A DNA stretch of 64,000 nucleotides from Petrimonas mucosa. GTDB lineage: Bacteria > Bacteroidota > Bacteroidia > Bacteroidales > Dysgonomonadaceae. Location of the stretch: positions 3,589,001 through 3,653,000 of the forward strand of contig NZ_LT608328.1 in assembly GCF_900095795.1 (NCBI RefSeq), read 5' to 3'. The position numbers and the translations under genes are program-made. The notes below the pieces were generated by a model that was not told the origin of the DNA, made no database searches, and was given only the letters and a program-made list of their open reading frames with translations. Below, piece by piece: positions 29,801-42,568 of the stretch (the stretch's first letter is position 1; each line of letters opens with the position of its first letter).

Positions 29801-29808
29801 GGTGTAAC
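29801..29808. repeat. Left 8-bp target-site duplication of the composite transposon
   Basis: ggtgtaac directly before the IS66 terminus at 29809; the same 8 bases follow the other outer terminus at 42561-42568. IS66 elements make 8-bp duplications. Confidence 0.88.
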
Positions 29809-29980
29809 GTATCCCGTCGGCTATGAGCGTGTTGCAGGAATGGGTAAAAATTAGCATATCCCTCTCCGGTCCACCTCCTATGGTTTATTCTCTGCTTCAA
29901 CCGGCACATTGAATCAATGGCGGTATGACAATATTGTATTCGATCGTTGATCGGGGGTATCGTGCATGTAAGGATCCGTC

Positions 29981-31498
29981 TTATCCAAGGATATTCTCTT
30001 TCCAATTGTGTGGGAGCAGCTCTTCCAGTTTATTCGCGTGATGATCGGGTATTCTGTTGAGGACATCAGTCATCCATCGCGTTGGATTCACGCCGGCTTC
30101 GCGACAACAGGCGAAGAAAGAATACATCATCGCGTTACGCTCGGCTCCCTCGTGGCTCCCGCAGAATAAATAGTTACGGCGTCCCAGGGCAAGTTTCCGG
30201 ATTTTATTTTCAATCTCGTTATTGTCTATCTCGAATTTGCCGTCCGTCATCGTCCTTTCCAACCTGTCCCAAATTTTCAGAGTGTAGGCAACCGCGATTC
30301 CTATGGGAGATTTAGGCAGGACTTGCCCCCGCTGGTCTTCCAGCCATCGTTTCAGCTCTTCCATCACCGGTATTGATTGTTGTTCGCGCAGCCGGTGCCG
30401 TTCCTCGAATGGCATCTTTTCTTCGCGTGCCCGTTTCTCTACCCGGTAGAGTTTCGCGAACAAGTCAAGGGCTTGACGCGATCTCGATGGCGAGTTCTCC
30501 TTGGCGTGTTCAAATTTTCGCCGGCTATGGGCCATGCATGCCAAAAGTGTGATGTGCTCCGCGTCCTTATACTGGTCATACCCCGCGTACGCGTCAGTTT
30601 GGAGCGCGCCGCGGTACCCGTCAAGAAATCCGGCGGCGACATCCCCCGAGCGGGATTTTCCGTACCTGAAGCACGCCATGCCTTCCACGGGGGCATGAAA
30701 CACCCACATGTACCCCTTGTGCGTGGCACCGGGCTTATCCGAGGTAAGAACAGGTATCGGGGACTCGTCCACCTGAAGGTAGTCGCGTTTCATTATTTCA
30801 TGGATCAGTGTATCGTCTAACGGCTCAAGCAAGCGGCAGACGGCGGCGTACCAGCCCTTGAGCGTCGACTCGGCAACCGGTATCTTTTGCCGCTTGAATA
30901 TCTCGGCCTGGCGATAGAACGGGAGGTGGTCGATGAATTTGCTCGCGCAGATATGGGAGAGAATGCCCGCCCCGGCATTTCCTTTCACGATGGGCAACGA
31001 GGGCATGGGGGCTACAGTAACGCAGCCTTCACCTTCCGTGCCCGGCACCACGTACTTGGGACGGATAATAACCCGCACGTAAACGTCGGCGGGCTTGTAC
31101 TCCAGCAGCTCGGTGACAGACTCCCCTATCTTGACGGCTCCATCGGGGATAAGGTCAGGTTCAATCACCTCCTCTTCCCGTCGCAGGTGCTCGGGAAGAC
31201 GGCTCCGGACAGGCTTTTCGCGTGTCTTTTCGCATTCGTAAGTGATGGTTTCCTTGTTCGCTTCCGCTTTTGGCTGAATATCGCGAAGTGAATCCCGCGT
31301 GCCGGCAAAGAGGTCCAATTGCCCGTCATCGGTTTTTTCCGACCTGAAGCGTTCACTTCTCACACCGTAAAGCATCCGTTTTAGCTCGGAGAGTTGAAAC
31401 CTCAGGTATTCGCAATCGGACTTGATGGACAGCAATTCGTTATATTCCCCGCGGGAAATAACAACCTGGTCATTCAATTCCGTATTGCTTGTTTTCAT
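29981..31498 (-). CDS. tnpC: IS66 transposase TnpC (copy 1)
   Basis: 505 residues from the ATG at 31498 (upstream ATG at 31537 possible). It has an N-terminal coiled-coil/leucine-rich part, a zinc-binding-like central region, the DDE domain with DESPIPVL, LQTDAYAGYD and the Glu in DNNEIENKIRKLALGRRNYLF, and the IS66 C-terminal segment. The frame is intact. One residue in the central region is Asp here and His in copy 2. Confidence 0.93.
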   Translation of the reverse strand: MKTSNTELNDQVVISRGEYNELLSIKSDCEYLRFQLSELKRMLYGVRSERFRSEKTDDGQLDLFAGTRDSLRDIQPKAEANKETITYECEKTREKPVRSRLPEHLRREEEVIEPDLIPDGAVKIGESVTELLEYKPADVYVRVIIRPKYVVPGTEGEGCVTVAPMPSLPIVKGNAGAGILSHICASKFIDHLPFYRQAEIFKRQKIPVAESTLKGWYAAVCRLLEPLDDTLIHEIMKRDYLQVDESPIPVLTSDKPGATHKGYMWVFHAPVEGMACFRYGKSRSGDVAAGFLDGYRGALQTDAYAGYDQYKDAEHITLLACMAHSRRKFEHAKENSPSRSRQALDLFAKLYRVEKRAREEKMPFEERHRLREQQSIPVMEELKRWLEDQRGQVLPKSPIGIAVAYTLKIWDRLERTMTDGKFEIDNNEIENKIRKLALGRRNYLFCGSHEGAERNAMMYSFFACCREAGVNPTRWMTDVLNRIPDHHANKLEELLPHNWKENILG

Positions 31499-31549
31499 GG
31501 TGTAAAGATACAACTTATCAATGAGATGAACAAGCACGAAAGTCTTTAT

Positions 31550-31912
31550 TCACGCGGTTTTTGGAGCAATATTGAATCTTTTCCGGCGGGTGGTTTTTTC
31601 CATGGAAATACCCTCGACCATCATGACCAAATCGCGCCAAAGAATACTGCATCCCTTGCCGGAAGAATGGACGCGGGGAAGGGAAAAGCGGCCGCTTTCC
31701 AGGCGCTTGTGGTACAGCACGAGCCCGCCCCGTTCCCAATGGAGCAGCTTGATGGTCGTCCTGGACCTGTTGACAAAGATGAACACTTCCCCGCCTAACG
31801 GGTCGCGTCCCAATTCCGATGAGACAAGCCCGCATAAACTGTCAAATCCTTTACGCAGGTCGGTGGGTGAGAGGCAGAGGTAAAAACGCTGGGATTCGTT
31901 AAGTGAGAACAT
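31550..31912 (-). CDS. tnpB: IS66 accessory protein TnpB (copy 1)
   Basis: 120 residues with the IS66 Orf2 pattern: YLCLSPTDLRKGFDSLCGLV, then the VFIFVNRSRTTIKLLHWERGG core. TnpB is needed together with TnpA and TnpC for IS66 transposition; its biochemical role is unclear. Confidence 0.93.
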   Translation of the reverse strand: MFSLNESQRFYLCLSPTDLRKGFDSLCGLVSSELGRDPLGGEVFIFVNRSRTTIKLLHWERGGLVLYHKRLESGRFSLPRVHSSGKGCSILWRDLVMMVEGISMEKTTRRKRFNIAPKTA

Positions 31913-31923
31913 CGTCCGGGAAA

Positions 31924-32274
31924 TTAAAAAGTGAGCAGTTCCCCGAGTAGCGTGATGTCGGTTACCCCCTCGTCCACGCGAAGAGTTACCCCGCCGGGAT
32001 AGGCGGTCTCGAACCGGGGCATCCGCCGGGAGGACGGCTTGCCGACAACAGTTACCGGCTGCAAGAGGGATGGCTCCTTTGCAGGGGGTGTTTTTGAGGC
32101 TTCATGTTCCGGATGGACTTCAAGATACAATTTTCTCCATTTGTAAAACTGCCATTCACTCATGTTTTTGGACCGGTAAAAATCCGTGGCCCGCTGACCA
32201 CTTTGAAAGTACTCTTCGATCAGGGAAAACGCTTCGTGTTGAGTAAAACGACGATTCATTTTGTTAGTGTTCAT
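31924..32274 (-). CDS. tnpA: IS66 accessory protein TnpA (copy 1)
   Basis: 116 residues from the ATG at 32274 (another ATG at 32310). An N-terminal helix-turn-helix-like region (EYFQSGQRATDFYRSKNMS, WQFYKWRKLY) suggests DNA binding. A C-terminal ITLLGELLTF and the position before tnpB fit IS66 Orf1. Confidence 0.85.
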   Translation of the reverse strand: MNTNKMNRRFTQHEAFSLIEEYFQSGQRATDFYRSKNMSEWQFYKWRKLYLEVHPEHEASKTPPAKEPSLLQPVTVVGKPSSRRMPRFETAYPGGVTLRVDEGVTDITLLGELLTF

Positions 32275-32334
32275 CTTTTTTTGACAAAGATCACGGTTTA
32301 ATCGAAGCAATCCAATACGCCTATGACCGACGGC

Positions 32335-33327
32335 TTACCGTACATCTGTGCCCGCAAAGCGAACGTCAGCGGTAATATACTGACAACCAAGCTTGCGGCT
32401 CCTTCTGGCTTCACCCCTGGCTTCAAGCAGATTGATCAGTGCCCGGGCGGTGAGTTCCTTCCCTTCAAAACCGTACCTGGTAACTCCCTTCTTCCCGATC
32501 TTGATCATACCCAGGTAATGGCACTTGATGTGCCGGGCACGTATGAATCGAATCACCTCCGAGCAGGTGAACCAGCTGTCGGCAAGCAGGTAGTCAAAGC
32601 GGATGCCCTTTCTAATGGCTCGCTTTATCATGGTTATCATCAACTGGATCTTGCTCTCCCCGTACTCTTTTGCCCGCGTTATAACGGGGGAGGCTTCATC
32701 TCTATCTTTGGTAAACCGCGATTCGAGCTCCTTGTCGCTCATGCTGAAGTTGTTCTTCCTGCCCTTCTCCCCGAGGATGGCGAAGTCGAGGATGAACTGG
32801 CTCTTGCCATCCGTGATGCCCAGAAAGAGAGATTTGAAACCAAGGATCGCCTTGTGTCCCAGGTGGGAATAGACCCTACCGATGTTTTCAATACGCCTTC
32901 CCGTTTTGGGAAAGTCGGTATCGTCCACCATCAGGCAAACAGTTTGATGCTTGTGGTCACTTCTCACGCGAACCTTGTTCCATATTTGAATGGTGAAGTG
33001 GTAGAGTATCTTGCGCCAATCATAAATTTCGTTGTTCACAAAACGGTAGAAAACATCCTTTTCGCAGCCAAAGAAGCCGCTTAGGGATGATCGACAATAA
33101 TTGTAAGGATTCTTGATCATGAAACAGGGGAACATAATCAGCAACTCGAGCACCTGCAGCAGGGAATACTTGCTGTTGCATTTGCTCCTGCTCCCGAAGA
33201 GGACCTTCTCCGACATGTTGAAACCTTTTAGCATATCCGTCAGGGTAAAAAGGGCACTGTTTGAATCATCTTTCTTGAAAAAAACGCTGATTTCTGATAA
33301 AATGGAGTTACTTTTGTATATCGGCAT
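32335..33327 (-). pseudogene. IS4-superfamily transposase truncated by IS66 copy 1
   Basis: A DDE transposase with the first Asp in VDDTDFPKTGRR and the second in LLADSWFTCSEV. It stops after about 330 residues because the IS66 terminus supplies the stop codon (32335-32337). The C-terminal part, which should carry the catalytic Glu, is missing and not found elsewhere in the window, so this copy is inactive. It is the left scar of the cargo and shows that IS66 inserted into an older IS. Confidence 0.85.
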
Positions 33328-33560
33328 AGGGCTGTTAGTATTTTTGGTTTTGACGCTTAAATATACTAATAATCTGTGAATTACAGAAGCCTCTGTGCCG
33401 TTTTTTTATGCGATTATTTTTACTGAATTTTTACTTGCGAAACTTGAATAATCCTGTAACACGTTCACAATAATCATCCCCATAATACCAAACAATTTTC
33501 CCGAAAAGAGATTGTCAGCTCAAAATAATTTACTAAATTGCAGCAGGATAATAACAAAAA

Positions 33561-33698
33561 ATGAATGTCATGGAACATGATCAAAACAGTGAAGTCATCT
33601 CCTATACGGCCCCTGACTTTGAAGTCGTTGAAATTGAAATTGAACAAAATATCCTGGCAGGTAGTACACCAGATTTTGACGGCGAGGATTGGGGTTAG
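33561..33698 (+). CDS. 45-residue peptide, candidate RiPP-type precursor
   Basis: A short ORF with ATG at 33561 and TAG at 33696-33698. The peptide has an acidic, non-secretory N-terminal half (residues 1-20), an alternating EVVEIEIEQ strand at 21-29, the NILAGS segment at 30-35 and a Gly/Asp-rich tail TPDFDGEDWG at 36-45. There is no signal peptide. It lies 23 bp before the LamG lipoprotein and upstream of a PqqD-like protein, kinase, peptidase and ABC exporter in the same direction. A leader-plus-tail layout fits a precursor recognised by PqqD. The alternative is a non-modified small protein. Confidence 0.65.
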   Translation: MNVMEHDQNSEVISYTAPDFEVVEIEIEQNILAGSTPDFDGEDWG

Positions 33699-33721
33699 TT
33701 TTTACTTTAAAAAAAACAGGT

Positions 33722-35338
33722 ATGAAGAAGTGCATCTTTTGGACGGTAGCTTCTGCCATCCTTCTTTTAGGCAGTTGCAACAAAGAAGAGACTCAGGATC
33801 CGACACCGCAGGAAACAGTAACGGTGCCGACACTGACCATAAGGGCTGCGATGCCCGATGAGAATCCTTCACCGCAAACACGTGTGGCACTCACGGAAAC
33901 TGTGGGTGGAAACATATCCGTACAATGGAAAGAGGGTGATAAAATTCACCTCTGTTTTGTCAGCGAGGATGGAAATACAGTAAGAACCGTTGCTGACGTG
34001 GCTGTGACCAATATCAGCGCAAATGGAAAGAGTGGCGAATTTGCCGTAGAAATCCCCACAGAGATCACCGGACGGTTTAACCTGTATGGCATCTATGGTG
34101 CTACATTCAAGGAGGCAAACAGTAAAACAGTGGTTTTCCCTGCAACACCCACGGGTGGCACCGATCTGTCCAATGCCGAAGAAATATGCGTTATGAAATT
34201 TGCACAGACAGGTCTGGAGGCAGGCTCCACCGTAAATGTCTCATTCCAACATCTGGGGTCAATAATAGGGATATGGTTGTTCAATGCCACCACCGATAGC
34301 TATAACGTGACTTCACTTTCCATGGGAAATGAGAGCTACCAGTGGTTGGGAAATGATGAGGGCGCTGCAGAATATGATATCGCAGCGGGTGAATTCACAA
34401 ACCGGAAACCCGGCAATATCCTCTCTTTCATCTCCGGAAGCACATTGTCTATTACCGGGGGAGAAACCAAAAAGCTATACCGGTGGGTTGTACCGGCTGC
34501 TGATTACGATAACACAAAACAACTGGTGGTAACCATCAATGATAATACCGGCAACAAGAGTGTTGAGATTCCTGTAATCACCATGGCACAAGGGAAATAC
34601 TACCGGTTGAAGCTCCTGAGAAACTATGTAGGATGGGGAAGAGTAACCTCACCTTCGGCAAGCGATCTGGTAGGGCACTGGCCTTTTGATGGGAACACCC
34701 AGGATGCCAAGGGCACCAATCATGTCACCGAATCCAACGGAGTATCCCTTGCCACCGACCGGTACGGCAATGAAAACAGTGCCTATTCCTTCAGCGGCAG
34801 CAGTTCTTACATGAAATGCACCACTGCCGGTATTACGGGAAGCTTCAACCCCCGCACCATTACTTTCTGGGCCAAAGCAGACAACCTCACTACTACATCA
34901 CAAACCATCCTTGTTTGGGGTGGAAGCACTGCTACAGATGGAAGCAGATTTGAGGTTAACCTGGTAAACAATCAGATTATCTGTGATATTTCCACCTCCA
35001 ATTACGGTAAAACAACCAGTGCGATTGTCGACGATGTATGGAATTTCTATGCCGTAGTGTATACGCCAAAATCCACTACCTATGTGAAAGAAAACACCCT
35101 GTCCAGTACAATAAGGTTCTATGTCAATGGGATTGTTCCAACTACTCCAGGGGTGTCACTCGAAACCACAATCGCAGTCAATACCCACAACACCAACCCC
35201 ATCTATTTTGGATCGCTATACAATACAGAGCGTAGATTCCAGGGGACACTGGATGACATAAGAATCTATAACAAAGCCCTTTCACAGGCAGAGATCATCG
35301 GGTTATATCTCAGCCAGGAACAACCGGCCAATCCATAG
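33722..35338 (+). CDS. Fimbrillin-like lipoprotein with C-terminal LamG domain
   Basis: 538 residues. The signal peptide ends in the lipobox LLGSC (Cys19). The N-terminal part resembles Bacteroidales fimbrillins (TRVALTETVGGNISVQWKEGDKIHL, and repeated beta strands up to about residue 300). A concanavalin-like LamG domain follows at about 315-530 (LVGHWPFDGNTQDAKG, ITFWAKADN, FQGTLDDIRIYNKALSQAEI). This is a surface-exposed binding protein of unknown ligand. I used the ATG at 33722 because the lipobox then fits; an earlier in-frame ATG at 33689 overlaps the peptide gene. The role in the cassette is unknown. Confidence 0.8.
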   Translation: MKKCIFWTVASAILLLGSCNKEETQDPTPQETVTVPTLTIRAAMPDENPSPQTRVALTETVGGNISVQWKEGDKIHLCFVSEDGNTVRTVADVAVTNISANGKSGEFAVEIPTEITGRFNLYGIYGATFKEANSKTVVFPATPTGGTDLSNAEEICVMKFAQTGLEAGSTVNVSFQHLGSIIGIWLFNATTDSYNVTSLSMGNESYQWLGNDEGAAEYDIAAGEFTNRKPGNILSFISGSTLSITGGETKKLYRWVVPAADYDNTKQLVVTINDNTGNKSVEIPVITMAQGKYYRLKLLRNYVGWGRVTSPSASDLVGHWPFDGNTQDAKGTNHVTESNGVSLATDRYGNENSAYSFSGSSSYMKCTTAGITGSFNPRTITFWAKADNLTTTSQTILVWGGSTATDGSRFEVNLVNNQIICDISTSNYGKTTSAIVDDVWNFYAVVYTPKSTTYVKENTLSSTIRFYVNGIVPTTPGVSLETTIAVNTHNTNPIYFGSLYNTERRFQGTLDDIRIYNKALSQAEIIGLYLSQEQPANP

Positions 35339-35350
35339 AGCAAAACATGT

Positions 35351-36253
35351 GTGGTGGGGTCCGTTAACAGATATAGGATTGCCGGTCACCTGATAGAAGT
35401 CAAAGATACTCCTCTGACTGAAATTATGGACCTCCTTCCCTCTTTTTCCCCCTTTTCAATAATACAGGAAAAAGAGGGGGAAGTACCGTTGGTCACCCTC
35501 TCTTGCACCCGGGGAAAAATCACACCTGAGGGGAGTGTTCTGGAAGAGTTCTCCCGAAACTCCTATCGGTATAAGATATTCAGCCATCATGAGACCATCA
35601 TTTGCCAAATTCGCCGCAATCAAATCACACACCACATGAAACTAGTGATGGGCCACTCTGATGTCCAATGCGATTTGGATACCACTCAGGATTCTCCCAC
35701 TAACATCACTCAGAAAGAGAAAGCCCCCTTTCTCAGCAACTTCCTCTCCATAGCCCTCGCCCTGGCATCAGTCAAACACAACACCATCAAAGTGCATGCC
35801 TCTGTCATTGAAAAAGAGGGAAAGGCATTGCTCTTCCTCGGAAAAAGCGGTACCGGGAAAAGCACCCACGCAAGTTTATGGCTTAAGCATATTACCGGAT
35901 CGACACTTATCAACGATGATGAGCCGTTGGTTAGGCTCCATGAAGATGGAACCGTCAGGGTGTACGGATCGCCATGGAGCGGGAAAACGCCCTGTTATCA
36001 AAATATCTCTGCCCAGGTGGAGGCTTTTGTACTGCTCTCTCAAAACAAGCAAAACAGACTTATAAAGCTTTCGGGGGTGAAGGCTTTTGGGGCACTATTC
36101 TCTTCTGTGGCCATCTTACGATCGAAACGGGAACACCACGATGCCTTGTTCGAACAGGTTGCCACCTTATCTGTGATGAAACCGGTTTACCTGTTGGAGT
36201 GCCGCCCCGACCGGGAAGCAGTGCTATTATCTCATTCATTGCTCCAACCATGA
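35351..36253 (+). CDS. HprK-like kinase of the peptide cassette
   Basis: 300 residues: an N-terminal half without clear homology, then an HPr-kinase/phosphorylase-like P-loop domain. VHASVIEKEGKAL leads to the Walker A GKSGTGKS (164-171), and the paired D189-D190 of INDDEPLVR match the HprK base. Such kinases in lasso-peptide clusters phosphorylate the precursor. The only suitable start is GTG at 35351, in the same frame as the preceding gene after its stop. The stop overlaps the next start (ATGA). Confidence 0.82.
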   Translation: MVGSVNRYRIAGHLIEVKDTPLTEIMDLLPSFSPFSIIQEKEGEVPLVTLSCTRGKITPEGSVLEEFSRNSYRYKIFSHHETIICQIRRNQITHHMKLVMGHSDVQCDLDTTQDSPTNITQKEKAPFLSNFLSIALALASVKHNTIKVHASVIEKEGKALLFLGKSGTGKSTHASLWLKHITGSTLINDDEPLVRLHEDGTVRVYGSPWSGKTPCYQNISAQVEAFVLLSQNKQNRLIKLSGVKAFGALFSSVAILRSKREHHDALFEQVATLSVMKPVYLLECRPDREAVLLSHSLLQP

Positions 36254-36702
36254 ATAAGAAGTTAATGTTAAATAACGCGCAGCTCCTTGATTTGGTAAGG
36301 AATGAGCTCTCCGAGGGTGGCTCTGTCAAGATCAAAGCCCGTGGAAATAGCATGAGGCCCTTGATTCAAGGAAACCGGGACGAGCTGGTTTTATGCAAAC
36401 CCAATGAGGACTCTTTCAAAAAAGGCTCCATCGTGTTGGCCCGGTTACAGGAAGAACATATGGTGGCACACCGGATTGCTGTTACAGACGGCAACACCCT
36501 GGTACTTCGGGGTGATGGCAATATTGCCGCAAGAGAGACCGTTAAACCGAAAGATGTTGTTGCCGAAGTGATTGCTGTTGTCCGAGGCAGAAAAATGATC
36601 AGGAAAGGATCCTTATGCTGGAACAAATACCGTTACCTTTGGCCTTCTAACCCACTCTTGAGAAGGGTTTTGCTTAAACTGTTTGCGGGCAAACAGGATT
36701 AA
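36250..36702 (+). CDS. S24/S26-type peptidase-like protein without membrane anchor
   Basis: 150 residues with signal-peptidase boxes: Ser34 in GNSMRPL, His74 in VAHRI where the ER/SipW-type enzymes have their catalytic His instead of Lys, and Asp89 in LRGDGN. A conserved VAEVIAVVRGR strand follows. There is no hydrophobic membrane segment, unlike true signal peptidases, so the protein is probably cytosolic. It might cut a leader from the precursor before export. A regulatory S24-like role is the alternative. Confidence 0.78.
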   Translation: MNKKLMLNNAQLLDLVRNELSEGGSVKIKARGNSMRPLIQGNRDELVLCKPNEDSFKKGSIVLARLQEEHMVAHRIAVTDGNTLVLRGDGNIAARETVKPKDVVAEVIAVVRGRKMIRKGSLCWNKYRYLWPSNPLLRRVLLKLFAGKQD

Positions 36703-36737
36703 GCCAAACTTAACCATCACATATTAACACACATAAA

Positions 36738-37004
36738 ATGAAAATAAAGGAAAAGTATAAGATCAGAAAAATCGGAACAGACGAAGTGCTTGTCTGCAGT
36801 GATGCTACGGGATTGGATTATTCTAGAATCATGGTCTTGAACCCATCTGCAGCTTTCCTGCTGCGGGAAACAGAGCACAACTCATTTACTCCCGGCCAAT
36901 GGGCAAATCTATTGGTTAGCCGTTACGCAATAGATCCGGAACAAGCCCTGCGGGATGCCGAAAAAATGATCGATAAACTCAAAAATGAAATGGTTTTGGA
37001 ATGA
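36738..37004 (+). CDS. PqqD-like RiPP recognition element protein
   Basis: 88 residues with the PqqD fold pattern: YKIRKIGTDEVLVCSDATGLDY, the MVLNPSAAFLL strand-helix, then a C-terminal helical part ending EKMIDKLKNEMVLE. PqqD domains bind the leader of ribosomal peptides and present it to modifying enzymes. Being a stand-alone protein between a peptidase and a nucleotidyltransferase supports a peptide-processing operon. The stop overlaps the next start. Confidence 0.85.
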   Translation: MKIKEKYKIRKIGTDEVLVCSDATGLDYSRIMVLNPSAAFLLRETEHNSFTPGQWANLLVSRYAIDPEQALRDAEKMIDKLKNEMVLE

Positions 37005-38116
37005 CATTAGTCCAATCGCTATATATATTGTTATTAAAGAGTTCACTGTGGAAGTCGGCGGTGGACCCAACCCTCTTTGAGGGGGTGGGCCCAAACGAAT
37101 GGCAAAATATCTTGAAACTCTCTACCCGGCAAAGGACCACCGCATTCATTGCACACAGCATTCAATCCCTGCCCCAAACCTTTCTGCCTTCCAAGTCGCA
37201 ACAATGGAAACTCATCCTCGAAACAGAAAAGATAGAAGAGGCCAATCGCAGATTGAACGGAATGATAGCCTTTCTAAGCAAGGAATACCTTTCTATCGGG
37301 ATCCCCTTTGTACTTTTAAAAGGCCAGGGTGTTGCGCTGAGCTATCCTGATCCCACCAAACGAACCCCCGGCGACATCGATCTTTTTTTCTACAAAGAAC
37401 AAGACTACCCCAAAGCCAATGAATGGGTACACCAGAAAGGGTATGAACAGGAGCCCGAAAGCATAAAACATTTGGGATTCAACATAGAGGGGATTCATGT
37501 TGAAAACCACAGACTCATGGCTACCTTTGACAGGCCAAAATACAACCGCATATTTATAAAGGAGTGCGAGAAGATTATAGACGGGGACGAATGGGCAGAG
37601 GCCAATATAGATGGGTGTAACCTGAGACTACTACCACACACCTTCAATGCCTGTTTTTTGTTTATCCACCTGTTTCACCATTTCATGCACCTGGGTATAA
37701 GTATGAGGCAACTATGCGACTGGATGCTCCACTTATCTGCCCATAAAAACCATATAAACAAGCAAGAAGCAGCCCGTCTGTTAAAGCTGCTGGCATTAGA
37801 CAGGCCGGCATCACTGTTTGCAGGCGTTGCAGTAAACTACCTTGGGGCACAACCAGGAATATTTCCCATTGAACCGCTATTCCATCCTGTGCATACAAAA
37901 AGAATCGTAAGAGACCTTTTAGAAGGGGGGCATTTTGGATTTTATCATCCCGGTAAAAAGAGGCCTCAAGGACAATGGGCTGGCAGGGCACACTCATACC
38001 TGACAACGGTAAAAAGATCACTGAAAATGGTTAGACTGGCACCTGAGCATATCGCATGCCTTCCTTATTATAAACTTATTAACAGGATTAAGATCACCCT
38101 CTTCCCAAAACCATGA
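37001..38116 (+). CDS. NTP_transf_5-family nucleotidyltransferase
   Basis: 371 residues. The core motif is VLLKGQGVALSY (104-115) followed by TPGDIDLFF (122-130) with the metal-binding D125-x-D127, as in the NTP_transf_5 (PF14907) family. A helical C-terminal half with several His-rich turns follows. In paeninodin-like lasso clusters such proteins accompany the HprK-like kinase. It may transfer a nucleotide or sugar-phosphate to the peptide, which is not known here. Confidence 0.85.
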   Translation: MTLVQSLYILLLKSSLWKSAVDPTLFEGVGPNEWQNILKLSTRQRTTAFIAHSIQSLPQTFLPSKSQQWKLILETEKIEEANRRLNGMIAFLSKEYLSIGIPFVLLKGQGVALSYPDPTKRTPGDIDLFFYKEQDYPKANEWVHQKGYEQEPESIKHLGFNIEGIHVENHRLMATFDRPKYNRIFIKECEKIIDGDEWAEANIDGCNLRLLPHTFNACFLFIHLFHHFMHLGISMRQLCDWMLHLSAHKNHINKQEAARLLKLLALDRPASLFAGVAVNYLGAQPGIFPIEPLFHPVHTKRIVRDLLEGGHFGFYHPGKKRPQGQWAGRAHSYLTTVKRSLKMVRLAPEHIACLPYYKLINRIKITLFPKP

Positions 38117-39765
38117 TCCGATTTCTACTCCAAATATCGCAGGGCGCACGTCGCTATATTTTTGCCATCATTGCAGTAGGGATAACAGATGTCGCGCTGA
38201 CACTGCTATTTGTATGGTCTTCGAAAGAGTTGGTCGATATTGCCACAGGAGAAAGTCAAAGAGATTTTCTGTTTATGGCATCTTTATTTGCCATCCAGGT
38301 TCTGTTTCAAATATTGCTACGCTCCATTGAGGTGCGCATAACCAGCCTTGCCGAAGTGAAGGTGGCCAATTCGCTTCGCAACATCCTCTTTGAACATCTG
38401 CTTCATGCTGAATGGCATCCGGTGTCGGCACTCAACAGGGGTGATACCCTTACCCGAATGATCAAGGACACCGATGATCTGGTAAGACTACTCACCAAAA
38501 TATTACCTCTTTCATTTACAGCCATACTCCAGCTTTGCGGAGCTGTCGTTTTTTTCTTCATTCTTGACTGGCGCCTGGCTCTGATCCTGACCATTGCTAT
38601 GCCCCTCTTGTTGCTTATAAGCCGTATCTACTACTTTCCAATGAAGCGGTATACCAAAGAGGTGAAAGAGAGTGAAAGCTCAATCACCTCGCATGTAGAG
38701 GAGAGTATGGCAAATCAGCTGGTCATAAAAACCTTTGAGCTACAAGATCAGGAACTGGAGAAATTGAACGAACTCCAGATCGATCTACATGGGAAAGTTG
38801 ACCGAAAGAGCCGAATCTCGTTCTTTGCCCGTGCCATTGCAGGGATGGCCTTTCAAGGGGGGTACTTACTAGCCTTTGTACGTGGAGCATATGGCCTTGC
38901 AACCCAAACCATCACTTTTGGCACCCTGACAGCTTTCCTGCAGCTTGTAGGGCGCATTCAGCGTCCGCTGTTCGAACTGACCCGATTGATTCCGGGAATT
39001 ATCTCTGCAAAAACAGCTACGGAAAGGCTCAGGGACATCATTGGATTAAAACGGGAAACCGTGCCGGTAAAGAACCTGCTTCAAGGCCCCTTGTCGCTGG
39101 TGATAAAAGAGTTAAGCTATTCATACAGACCCGGGAGTCGCCCCGTCATTAACAATCTCTCATTTACCCTTAACCCGGGAGAAATGGTTGCGATTATGGG
39201 CGAAACGGGAGTAGGCAAAACAACCCTTGCCCGACTTCTGCTTGGTTTGGTCAAACCCGACAAAGGGAGCATGGAATTTATTCACAATCAAAAACGTATA
39301 ACAATCGATGCAACCACAAGATCGAACTTTGTCTATGTACCTCAGGAGAAACTGCTCTTTAAAGGAACCATCAGAGACAACCTGCTGATGGGCAACGCAG
39401 AGGCAAGTGAGGTTCAACTCCGGCAGGCTCTTGAGACGGCATCTGCCACCTTCGCATTCATGCTTCCCAACGGCTTGGATACCATCATTGGAGAGGGAGG
39501 TTTTGGTTTATCAGAGGGTGAGGCCCAACGGATATCCATTGCGCGGTCACTGCTCCGTCCGGGCCGGATTCTCCTGCTTGACGAATCAAGCTCTTCCCTG
39601 GATTATGTAACCGAACAAGCATTTTTGTCTCATCTAAAAAAGAATCTCAACGGAAGGTCGGTAATTTTCATCACACACCACAAGGAAGTTGCAGCGCAGT
39701 GTGATATGACGATCCGCTTCTCCGAAAACAACAGGGTACGTGGAGGGCATATATCCTCCCCATAG
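38113..39765 (+). CDS. ABC exporter (membrane plus ATPase half-transporter)
   Basis: 550 residues: a type I ABC membrane domain with six helices (1-310, for example YIFAIIAVGITDVALTLLFV) and an ATPase domain. It has Walker A GETGVGKT (363-370), signature LSEGEAQ (466-472), and Walker B LLLDES with catalytic E491. There is no N-terminal C39 peptidase, so any leader removal must be done by another protein. It is the last gene of the cassette and would export the peptide product. Confidence 0.9.
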   Translation: MIRFLLQISQGARRYIFAIIAVGITDVALTLLFVWSSKELVDIATGESQRDFLFMASLFAIQVLFQILLRSIEVRITSLAEVKVANSLRNILFEHLLHAEWHPVSALNRGDTLTRMIKDTDDLVRLLTKILPLSFTAILQLCGAVVFFFILDWRLALILTIAMPLLLLISRIYYFPMKRYTKEVKESESSITSHVEESMANQLVIKTFELQDQELEKLNELQIDLHGKVDRKSRISFFARAIAGMAFQGGYLLAFVRGAYGLATQTITFGTLTAFLQLVGRIQRPLFELTRLIPGIISAKTATERLRDIIGLKRETVPVKNLLQGPLSLVIKELSYSYRPGSRPVINNLSFTLNPGEMVAIMGETGVGKTTLARLLLGLVKPDKGSMEFIHNQKRITIDATTRSNFVYVPQEKLLFKGTIRDNLLMGNAEASEVQLRQALETASATFAFMLPNGLDTIIGEGGFGLSEGEAQRISIARSLLRPGRILLLDESSSSLDYVTEQAFLSHLKKNLNGRSVIFITHHKEVAAQCDMTIRFSENNRVRGGHISSP

Positions 39766-39840: not shown

Positions 39841-40030
39841 CTATTTGATTGTGGGAGAAAAGCGCTTCGAGAGAACCTTGCGCAGCGGCTCATCGTAGAG
39901 CTTCAGCACGAGCCATGCCAGCAGGATGTTACCGAAGAGTAACGCCAGCGCCACGGGCCATGTCTGTGCGAAGGTGAGTTCATTCTTCCATATCCAGGCA
40001 TAGAAGAGGTACATGAAAGGGTAGTGTACC
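39841..40030 (-). pseudogene. C-terminal remnant of an OafA-type acyltransferase
   Basis: About 60 codons on the minus strand, running from the IS66 copy 2 border to a stop at 39841. The remnant reads HYPFMYLFYAW, then a membrane helix (WPVALALLFGNILLAWLVL) and KLYDEPLRKVLSKRF, which is the usual end of acyltransferase-3 membrane enzymes. The N-terminal 300 residues are missing, and the sequence on the far side of copy 2 is unrelated. This is the right scar of the cargo. Confidence 0.8.
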
Positions 40031-40202
40031 GTATCCCGTCGGCTATGAGCGTGTTGCAGGAATGGGTAAAAATTAGCATATCCCTCTCCGGTCCACCTCC
40101 TATGGTTTATTCTCTGCTTCAACCGGCACATTGAATCAATGGCGGTATGACAATATTGTATTCGATCGTTGATCGGGGGTATCGTGCATGTAAGGATCCG
40201 TC

Positions 40203-41720
40203 TTATCCAAGGATATTCTCTTTCCAATTGTGTGGGAGCAGCTCTTCCAGTTTATTCGCGTGATGATCGGGTATTCTGTTGAGGACATCAGTCATCCATC
40301 GCGTTGGATTCACGCCGGCTTCGCGACAACAGGCGAAGAAAGAATACATCATCGCGTTACGCTCGGCTCCCTCGTGGCTCCCGCAGAATAAATAGTTACG
40401 GCGTCCCAGGGCAAGTTTCCGGATTTTATTTTCAATCTCGTTATTGTCTATCTCGAATTTGCCGTCCGTCATCGTCCTTTCCAACCTGTCCCAAATTTTC
40501 AGAGTGTAGGCAACCGCGATTCCTATGGGAGATTTAGGCAGGACTTGCCCCCGCTGGTCTTCCAGCCATCGTTTCAGCTCTTCCATCACCGGTATTGATT
40601 GTTGTTCGCGCAGCCGGTGCCGTTCCTCGAATGGCATCTTTTCTTCGCGTGCCCGTTTCTCTACCCGGTAGAGTTTCGCGAACAAGTCAAGGGCTTGACG
40701 CGATCTCGATGGCGAGTTCTCCTTGGCGTGTTCAAATTTTCGCCGGCTATGGGCCATGCATGCCAAAAGTGTGATGTGCTCCGCGTCCTTATACTGGTCA
40801 TACCCCGCGTACGCGTCAGTTTGGAGCGCGCCGCGGTACCCGTCAAGAAATCCGGCGGCGACATCCCCCGAGCGGGATTTTCCGTACCTGAAGCACGCCA
40901 TGCCTTCCACGGGGGCATGAAACACCCACATGTACCCCTTGTGCGTGGCACCGGGCTTATCCGAGGTAAGAACAGGTATCGGGGACTCGTCCACCTGAAG
41001 GTAGTCGCGTTTCATTATTTCATGGATCAGTGTATCGTGTAACGGCTCAAGCAAGCGGCAGACGGCGGCGTACCAGCCCTTGAGCGTCGACTCGGCAACC
41101 GGTATCTTTTGCCGCTTGAATATCTCAGCCTGGCGATAGAACGGGAGGTGGTCGATGAATTTGCTCGCGCAGATATGGGAGAGAATGCCCGCCCCGGCAT
41201 TTCCTTTCACGATGGGCAACGAGGGCATGGGGGCTACAGTAACGCAGCCTTCACCTTCCGTGCCCGGCACCACGTACTTGGGACGGATAATAACCCGCAC
41301 GTAAACGTCGGCGGGCTTGTACTCCAGCAGCTCGGTGACAGACTCCCCTATCTTGACGGCTCCATCGGGGATAAGGTCAGGTTCAATCACCTCCTCTTCC
41401 CGTCGCAGGTGCTCGGGAAGACGGCTCCGGACAGGCTTTTCGCGTGTCTTTTCGCATTCGTAAGTGATGGTTTCCTTGTTCGCTTCCGCTTTTGGCTGAA
41501 TATCGCGAAGTGAATCCCGCGTGCCGGCAAAGAGGTCCAATTGCCCGTCATCGGTTTTTTCCGACCTGAAGCGTTCACTTCTCACACCGTAAAGCATCCG
41601 TTTTAGCTCGGAGAGTTGAAACCTCAGGTATTCGCAATCGGACTTGATGGACAGCAATTCGTTATATTCCCCGCGGGAAATAACAACCTGGTCATTCAAT
41701 TCCGTATTGCTTGTTTTCAT
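40203..41720 (-). CDS. tnpC: IS66 transposase TnpC (copy 2)
   Basis: Identical to the copy 1 protein except for His in place of Asp in LEPL(H)DTLIHEIM, due to the base at 41039. The DDE residues are retained, so both copies could supply transposase for the composite. Confidence 0.93.
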   Translation of the reverse strand: MKTSNTELNDQVVISRGEYNELLSIKSDCEYLRFQLSELKRMLYGVRSERFRSEKTDDGQLDLFAGTRDSLRDIQPKAEANKETITYECEKTREKPVRSRLPEHLRREEEVIEPDLIPDGAVKIGESVTELLEYKPADVYVRVIIRPKYVVPGTEGEGCVTVAPMPSLPIVKGNAGAGILSHICASKFIDHLPFYRQAEIFKRQKIPVAESTLKGWYAAVCRLLEPLHDTLIHEIMKRDYLQVDESPIPVLTSDKPGATHKGYMWVFHAPVEGMACFRYGKSRSGDVAAGFLDGYRGALQTDAYAGYDQYKDAEHITLLACMAHSRRKFEHAKENSPSRSRQALDLFAKLYRVEKRAREEKMPFEERHRLREQQSIPVMEELKRWLEDQRGQVLPKSPIGIAVAYTLKIWDRLERTMTDGKFEIDNNEIENKIRKLALGRRNYLFCGSHEGAERNAMMYSFFACCREAGVNPTRWMTDVLNRIPDHHANKLEELLPHNWKENILG

Positions 41721-41771
41721 GGTGTAAAGATACAACTTATCAATGAGATGAACAAGCACGAAAGTCTTTAT

Positions 41772-42134
41772 TCACGCGGTTTTTGGAGCAATATTGAATC
41801 TTTTCCGGCGGGTGGTTTTTTCCATGGAAATACCCTCGACCATCATGACCAAATCGCGCCAAAGAATACTGCATCCCTTGCCGGAAGAATGGACGCGGGG
41901 AAGGGAAAAGCGGCCGCTTTCCAGGCGCTTGTGGTACAGCACGAGCCCGCCCCGTTCCCAATGGAGCAGCTTGATGGTCGTCCTGGACCTGTTGACAAAG
42001 ATGAACACTTCCCCGCCTAACGGGTCGCGTCCCAATTCCGATGAGACAAGCCCGCATAAACTGTCAAATCCCTTACGCAGGTCGGTGGGTGAGAGGCAGA
42101 GGTAAAAACGCTGGGATTCGTTAAGTGAGAACAT
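41772..42134 (-). CDS. tnpB: IS66 accessory protein TnpB (copy 2)
   Basis: 120 residues, same protein as copy 1; one silent base change is visible in the codon before YLCLSPTDLRK-distal LRKGF region. Confidence 0.93.
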   Translation of the reverse strand: MFSLNESQRFYLCLSPTDLRKGFDSLCGLVSSELGRDPLGGEVFIFVNRSRTTIKLLHWERGGLVLYHKRLESGRFSLPRVHSSGKGCSILWRDLVMMVEGISMEKTTRRKRFNIAPKTA

Positions 42135-42145
42135 CGTCCGGGAAA

Positions 42146-42496
42146 TTAAAAAGTGAGCAGTTCCCCGAGTAGCGTGATGTCGGTTACCCCCTCGTCCACG
42201 CGAAGAGTTACCCCGCCGGGATAGGCGATCTCGAACCGGGGCATCCGCCGGGAGGACGGCTTGCCGATAACAGTTACCGGCTGCAAGAGGGATGGCTCCT
42301 TTGCAGGGGGTGTTTTTGAGGCTTCATGTTCCGGATGGACTTCAAGATACAATTTTCTCCATTTGTAAAACTGCCATTCACTCATGTTTTTGGACCGGTA
42401 AAAATCCGTGGCCCGCTGACCACTTTGAAAGTACTCTTCGATCAGGGAAAACGCTTCGTGTTGAGTAAAACGACGATTCATTTTGTTAGTGTTCAT
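42146..42496 (-). CDS. tnpA: IS66 accessory protein TnpA (copy 2)
   Basis: Same as copy 1 apart from Ile for Val in PVTVIGKPSS and Ile for Thr in RFEIAYPGG. The start at 42496 was chosen as in copy 1. Confidence 0.85.
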   Translation of the reverse strand: MNTNKMNRRFTQHEAFSLIEEYFQSGQRATDFYRSKNMSEWQFYKWRKLYLEVHPEHEASKTPPAKEPSLLQPVTVIGKPSSRRMPRFEIAYPGGVTLRVDEGVTDITLLGELLTF

Positions 42497-42560
42497 CTTT
42501 TTTTGACAAAGATCACGGTTTAATCGAAGCAATCCAATACGCCTATGACCGACGGCTTAC

Positions 42561-42568
42561 GGTGTAAC
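42561..42568. repeat. Right 8-bp target-site duplication of the composite transposon
   Basis: ggtgtaac; pairs with 29801-29808. Confidence 0.88.

Follow-up and report, generated by a model that had tools for sequence, protein, structure and literature searches.

The operon at positions 33561-39765 of the window (the whole 64,000-nucleotide stretch of Petrimonas mucosa DNA that we analysed) is likely an LPP-like RiPP pathway as it occurs in Bacteroidota, joined there to a surface lipoprotein that resembles a pilin; gene set, residues and the published description all point this way. Judging by the sequences, its product is very probably a short, phosphorylated, secreted peptide. We conclude that the operon does not represent a new RiPP class. 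It would operate in the manner of LPP, although the phylum and the partner are both new.

LPP (Linear Polyphosphorylated Peptide) RiPPs were described by Popov et al. in May 2026 (PMC13381572), with lppAKBSDN of Paenibacillus alginolyticus as the reference cluster. According to that article they are restricted to Bacillota, are of unknown function, and combine an RRE, an HprK-like kinase, a SipW-like peptidase, an NTP transferase and an MsbA-like exporter without a cyclase, a set that the window operon shares down to the S26 type of the peptidase and the missing cyclase. A previous sequence-only reading had called the system undescribed and a possible distinct RiPP class. Both labels have been overtaken by that article: the same enzymes, Ser phosphorylation past a YxxP leader and S26-type leader removal are published there as LPP, and the gene set matches that of the Bacillota systems. 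The main texts of a Bacteroidales RiPP mining study (PMC10352776), of RRE-Finder and of papers on structure-based RRE detection do not mention the gene set. Since it is found in Bacteroidota of the gut and sludge type, Bacteroides fragilis among them, the kind would seem to reach beyond Bacillota, into hosts with good genetics for studying LPP-like peptides.

Seven plus-strand genes, preceded by a putative promoter, were found:

33512..33540, + strand: Bacteroidetes-type promoter-like sequence (TTG, 19 nt, TAAATTG), putative, read from the sequence, just 5' of the peptide gene
33561..33698, + strand: precursor peptide, 45 aa, MNVMEHDQNSEVISYTAPDFEVVEIEIEQNILAGSTPDFDGEDWG; 74-member family, best profile matches among same-family genomes
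33722..35338, + strand: surface lipoprotein, 538 aa, with lipobox, fimbrillin-fold domain and C-terminal LamG (concanavalin A-like) domain; LamG match and AlphaFold2 model
35351..36253, + strand: HprK-like peptide kinase, 300 aa; HprK_rel_A 1.3e-7, ScmC 1.6e-7, invariant BsfK catalytic set
36250..36702, + strand: S26-type (SipW/archaeal-like) leader peptidase, 150 aa, Ser34/His74; Pfam S24 1.5e-6, SipW model 0.01
36738..37004, + strand: discrete RiPP recognition element (RRE; PqqD/B1 type), 88 aa; PF05402 4.5e-9
37001..38116, + strand: NTP_transf_5 nucleotidyltransferase-fold enzyme, 371 aa; PF14907 6.9e-40
38113..39765, + strand: ABC exporter (MsbA/type I-like), 550 aa; ABC_membrane 8.3e-36, ABC_tran 9.2e-28

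The Bacteroidetes promoter consensus is TTTG-N19-21-TAnnTTTG. The sequence-only reading had recognised the peptide, kinase, S26-type peptidase, PqqD protein, NTP_transf_5 enzyme and ABC exporter, all of which are present, and its order from kinase to exporter stands; its list was incomplete, having left out the 538-aa lipoprotein between peptide and kinase. It had also placed ATGA overlaps at most junctions. We found three (kinase/S26, PqqD/NTP_transf_5 and NTP_transf_5/ABC), the other genes being separated by gaps of 23 nt (peptide-lipoprotein), 12 nt (lipoprotein-kinase) and 35 nt (S26-PqqD). Pfam detected membrane and ATPase domains in the exporter and no peptidase domain.

The operon is flanked by two direct, gapless 2540-bp copies (29802-32341 and 40024-42563) that are 99.7% identical, a layout like that of a composite transposon. 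The element has an IS66-like arrangement of minus-strand ORFs (518, 120 and 128 aa), the family being assigned by eye. Between the left copy and the peptide promoter lies a 330-aa minus-strand ORF (32335-33327) that reads like a DDE transposase. A plasmid search returned three distant matches, and the only PADLOC matches to defence models were ABC-type ATPases, which leaves a defence role without support.

Since 194 ORFs of at least 30 aa overlap the surrounding 18 kb, a 45-aa ORF taken alone might be due to chance; its homologues across dozens of genomes establish that it is genuine. We collected PqqD relatives in the bacterial family, widened the loci around them and gathered short ORFs of the same pattern into a nine-sequence profile. 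Of the 101 genomes of the family, 34 gave a match to this profile, patchily distributed and in at most seven copies per genome. A contig scan with the single PqqD protein gave no matches, and relatives were recovered in that scan when the NTP_transf_5 alignment served as query. Comparison of homologous operons for a conserved short ORF, as the sequence-only reading had proposed, thus yielded one: a precursor-like peptide whose family (n=74) co-occurs with the machinery.

At the sequence level the family is well defined. Tyr and Pro are invariant, YxxP being present in 74/74 members, and most members carry a gapless 18-residue block anchored on the Tyr, YxxPxIEVxEIExxQNIL, over which a pN/pS of 0.34 indicates purifying constraint. 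All 74 have a hydrophobic residue at +5 and a later Ser. The block is followed by small residues including Ser and then by an acidic tail, with a Trp among the last three residues in 53 of the 74 peptides. Against PDB chains the peptide gave chance-level matches only. Two more peptide-lipoprotein pairs are present in the same genome (L094 and L095; G000:C1:1129451 and 903300), distant from both machinery copies.

Peptide and machinery occur in the same genomes. Among the 101 same-family genomes, PqqD and peptide were found together in 28, PqqD only in 3, peptide only in 6 and neither in 64 (Fisher p=6.8e-16); with NTP_transf_5 in place of PqqD the counts were 30/7/4/60. As related genomes are not independent, the link was rechecked inside the largest genus (p=4e-4; genus size inferred from genome order) and, leaving the own family aside, over the rest of the order (8/19/4/355, p=8e-8). 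The association is more than adjacency, since the peptide genes lie apart from the machinery in roughly half of the genomes. Four genomes had the peptide without detected machinery (MAGs, 85-93% complete), and some relatives (L041, L047) lack adjacent S26 and NTP_transf_5 genes. Named NTP_transf_5 relatives were found in Petrimonas, Proteiniphilum, Fermentimonas, Seramator, Dysgonomonas, Phocaeicola, Mediterranea, Prevotella and Bacteroides (B. fragilis Q1F2, B. cellulosilyticus, B. stercorirosoris and B. caecigallinarum), not all of which carry the whole gene set. B. fragilis Q1F2 has the complete machinery, with two peptide-lipoprotein pairs 3' of the ABC gene. A single set of machinery for as many as seven precursor genes, dispersed over the genome, is an uncommon arrangement for a RiPP.

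Phosphorylation and/or nucleotidylation had been proposed for the peptide, should it be the substrate, and the sequences make phosphorylation the likely modification. In the window peptide the leader extends from Y15xxP18 to L32 and the predicted acceptor is Ser35 (codon 33663-33665). When the cut is assumed after Y+17, 72/74 peptides have a Ser at core positions 2-4; when the tails were shuffled 2000 times, the mean was 21.6 and the highest count 35. The variable tail frequently has no second hydroxyl residue, so the case for phosphorylation hangs on this one Ser. In the kinase, H149, G164, G167, G169, K170, S171, D189 and D190 are invariant (54/54), an intact His-Lys-Asp-Asp set. Its domain scores were under the cut-offs of Pfam (Hpr_kinase_C, 0.0035) and NCBIfam (HprK_rel_A, 1.3e-7). 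In the lasso peptide system of BsfA, the kinase BsfK phosphorylates Ser3, aided by its RRE (PMC10368454).

Pfam support was strong for PqqD (4.5e-9), NTP_transf_5 (6.9e-40) and the ABC exporter (8e-36) and modest for the peptidase (S24, 1.5e-6). In the peptidase, S34, H74, D89 and E96 are invariant (51/51); the Ser-His spacing is 40 compared with 39 in LppS, and D89 or E96 would be the counterpart of LppS D93. Among RREs of known structure the window RRE comes nearest to lasso B1 proteins, with the lasso RRE TfuB1 as its best relative (5.8e-5). Its D73 (63/63) and N35 (61/63) are the proposed equivalents of LppB D70 and N33, as suggested by spacing and the TfuB1 alignment. In the NTP_transf_5 enzyme, KG, GDxD and ExH are nearly invariant (n=89 sequences); its structural model (pLDDT 93) had weak matches to ANT(2'')-Ia, the CCA-adding enzyme and FKRP.

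These residues can be set beside experiments on LPP. As given in PMC13381572, the RRE binds YxxP via D70 and N33, the kinase adds several phosphates to Ser3, the Ser/His/Asp peptidase removes the leader with the assistance of the RRE, and deletion of lppN, the NTP transferase gene, had no detectable effect. The residues assayed in BsfK, LppB and LppS have conserved counterparts in the Bacteroidota enzymes. Both kinds of precursor have a YxxP leader and a Ser ~18-20 residues past the Tyr (Y+18 in LPP, Y+19 in BsfA, with a peak at Y+20 in the Bacteroidota peptides), and some loci of both adjoin polysaccharide genes. Apart from the host phylum, there are three differences. The LPP consensus YxxPxVLxHQxIxFETxxS is not matched by the Bacteroidota peptides, whose middle reads EVxEIExxQNIL; the LppA core has 45 residues, whereas the Bacteroidota tail is short, acidic and often Trp-ended; and the fimbrillin-paired, genome-scattered precursors of Bacteroidota have no LPP counterpart in the accessible part of the article.

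By analogy with the LPP and lasso experiments, we propose the following pathway. The PqqD-like RRE would bind the peptide by its leader, through YxxP and beta-strand pairing, and present it to the HprK-like kinase for phosphorylation, perhaps repeated, of the conserved Ser right behind the QNIL block. Removal of the leader, possibly after Leu32, a point guessed from the Ser3 numbering, would then fall to the S26-type Ser/His peptidase and leave a core such as AGSTPDFDGEDWG. NTP_transf_5 may add a further group, most likely onto the phosphate; PsmN, a nucleotidyltransferase of a lasso cluster, has been tied to hexose addition on phosphate (PMC9266682). Finally, the ABC exporter would carry the product outside, where it would meet the co-encoded fimbrillin-fold lipoprotein.

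No gene accompanies the peptide more consistently than that of this lipoprotein. In the window it has a lipobox, as read from the sequence, and a LamG domain (Pfam, 3.7e-19). Its AlphaFold2 model (pLDDT 85) resolves the N-terminal half well, and the solved structures closest to it belong to fimbrial and cell-adhesion proteins of Bacteroidales (3ufi at 2.2e-11, 4k4k, 3sy6, Mfa2, Mfa4 and FimA); in the model this half is a two-domain beta structure with the type V pilus (FimA/Mfa) fold. Directly 3' of the peptide genes we found 65 non-redundant proteins, nearly all of them lipobox-bearing lipoproteins, with one locus (L061) where the protein listed is the kinase. A fimbrillin profile alone paired 57 of the 74 peptides with a partner; of the others, three are at the end of a contig, and the remainder mostly precede lipoproteins too divergent for the profile. 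Some partners match Mfa_like_1. The pairs are mostly far from the machinery. The partners share the N-terminal fold and the lipobox with type V pilus fimbrillins (FimA/Mfa/BACOVA_04980). Unlike these, they are often fused to a further domain (LamG in the window, Fib_succ_major or Mac-1 in others) and have a RiPP-like peptide gene 5'. In B. fragilis Q1F2 one peptide-paired lipoprotein (L210:11724-13280) consists of a fimbrillin domain and a Mac-1 (IdeS-type) domain.

To our knowledge, the constant pairing with a fimbrillin lipoprotein is the first strong hint at the purpose of such peptides. The gene pairing suggests that peptide and lipoprotein may be in contact. Speculatively, and with more doubt than belief, we consider that the exported phosphorylated peptide, possibly capped with a sugar or nucleotide, might bind or join the fimbrillin lipoprotein, acting for instance as a donor strand or ligand, one RiPP machine thereby decorating or assembling the adhesin set of each genome. 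Compatible with the LPP-like chemistry is another function, which we regard as unlikely: the lipoprotein could confer immunity to, or act as receptor for, a mature peptide that serves as bacteriocin or signal. The one-to-one pairing, the patchy distribution and the flanking IS copies would suit this proposal; however, large lipoproteins with varied C-terminal domains (LamG, Fib_succ_major, Mac-1) resemble surface adhesins or effectors more than immunity proteins.

A further explanation concerns the substrate itself. The enzymes could act on something other than the peptide, such as a capsule sugar or the fimbrillin lipoprotein, and the peptide could be a small partner of that lipoprotein with a structural or regulatory role. 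It would account for the persistence of the peptide-fimbrillin pairing far from the machinery and for the machinery of L055, L056 and L058, whose surroundings are of the capsule type and encode polysaccharide export proteins or glycosyltransferases. It also agrees with the NTP_transf_5 homologues of L207, L217 and L218, where other genes are present and PqqD or kinase were not recognised; the family thus probably has other jobs too. However, the peptide bears the motif that PqqD-type RREs recognise (YxxP), both binding residues are retained in the RRE, and peptide and machinery coincide by genome even though the genes are often unlinked. We therefore consider another target improbable and prefer an LPP-like pathway acting on the peptide. 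In four loci (L055, L057, L060 and L062) of the polysaccharide export or capsule type, a variant of the system is present, in which a different peptide, YxSPLxEVIEVDVEEGFAMS..., is encoded 5' of a lipoprotein.

Phosphorylated lasso peptides are known (paeninodin, pseudomycoidin and Bsf; PMC8498205, PMC9266682, PMC10368454), and their systems share with the operon the HprK-like kinase with His-Lys-Asp-Asp, the PqqD-like B1 protein and an NTP transferase. In contrast to them, the operon has an S26 peptidase and lacks the lasso cyclase and the B2 transglutaminase-type protease. The sequence-only reading had described RiPP-like machinery without its own cyclase or B2, and this was borne out: Pfam detected no lasso macrolactam cyclase in the operon, and PF13471 (B2) had no match in the whole genome. 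That a lasso system is completed by a cyclase and B2 encoded elsewhere in the genome is hardly credible: RRE, kinase, NTP transferase, transporter and YxxP leader motif are of the lasso type, but besides the missing B2 and the S26 peptidase in its place, the sole strong Asn_synthase match is a distant protein of 585 aa, the size of asparagine synthetase, a 511-aa match is marginal, and in the core tails no single ring position carries a conserved acid.

The HPr-rel-A and SynChlorMet cassettes have PqqD-like partners. Their HprK-related kinases (NCBIfam TIGR04352, HprK_rel_A, and TIGR04249, ScmC) are a further point in common with the LPP-like operon. The respective cut-offs are 200 and 125 bits; with 31 bits the window kinase falls outside both families.

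The same genome has another copy of the machinery, which is conserved in the genus (L032, G000:C1:2234000-2249000). It has no adjacent peptide, and a 134-aa lipoprotein is encoded between its S26 and PqqD genes.
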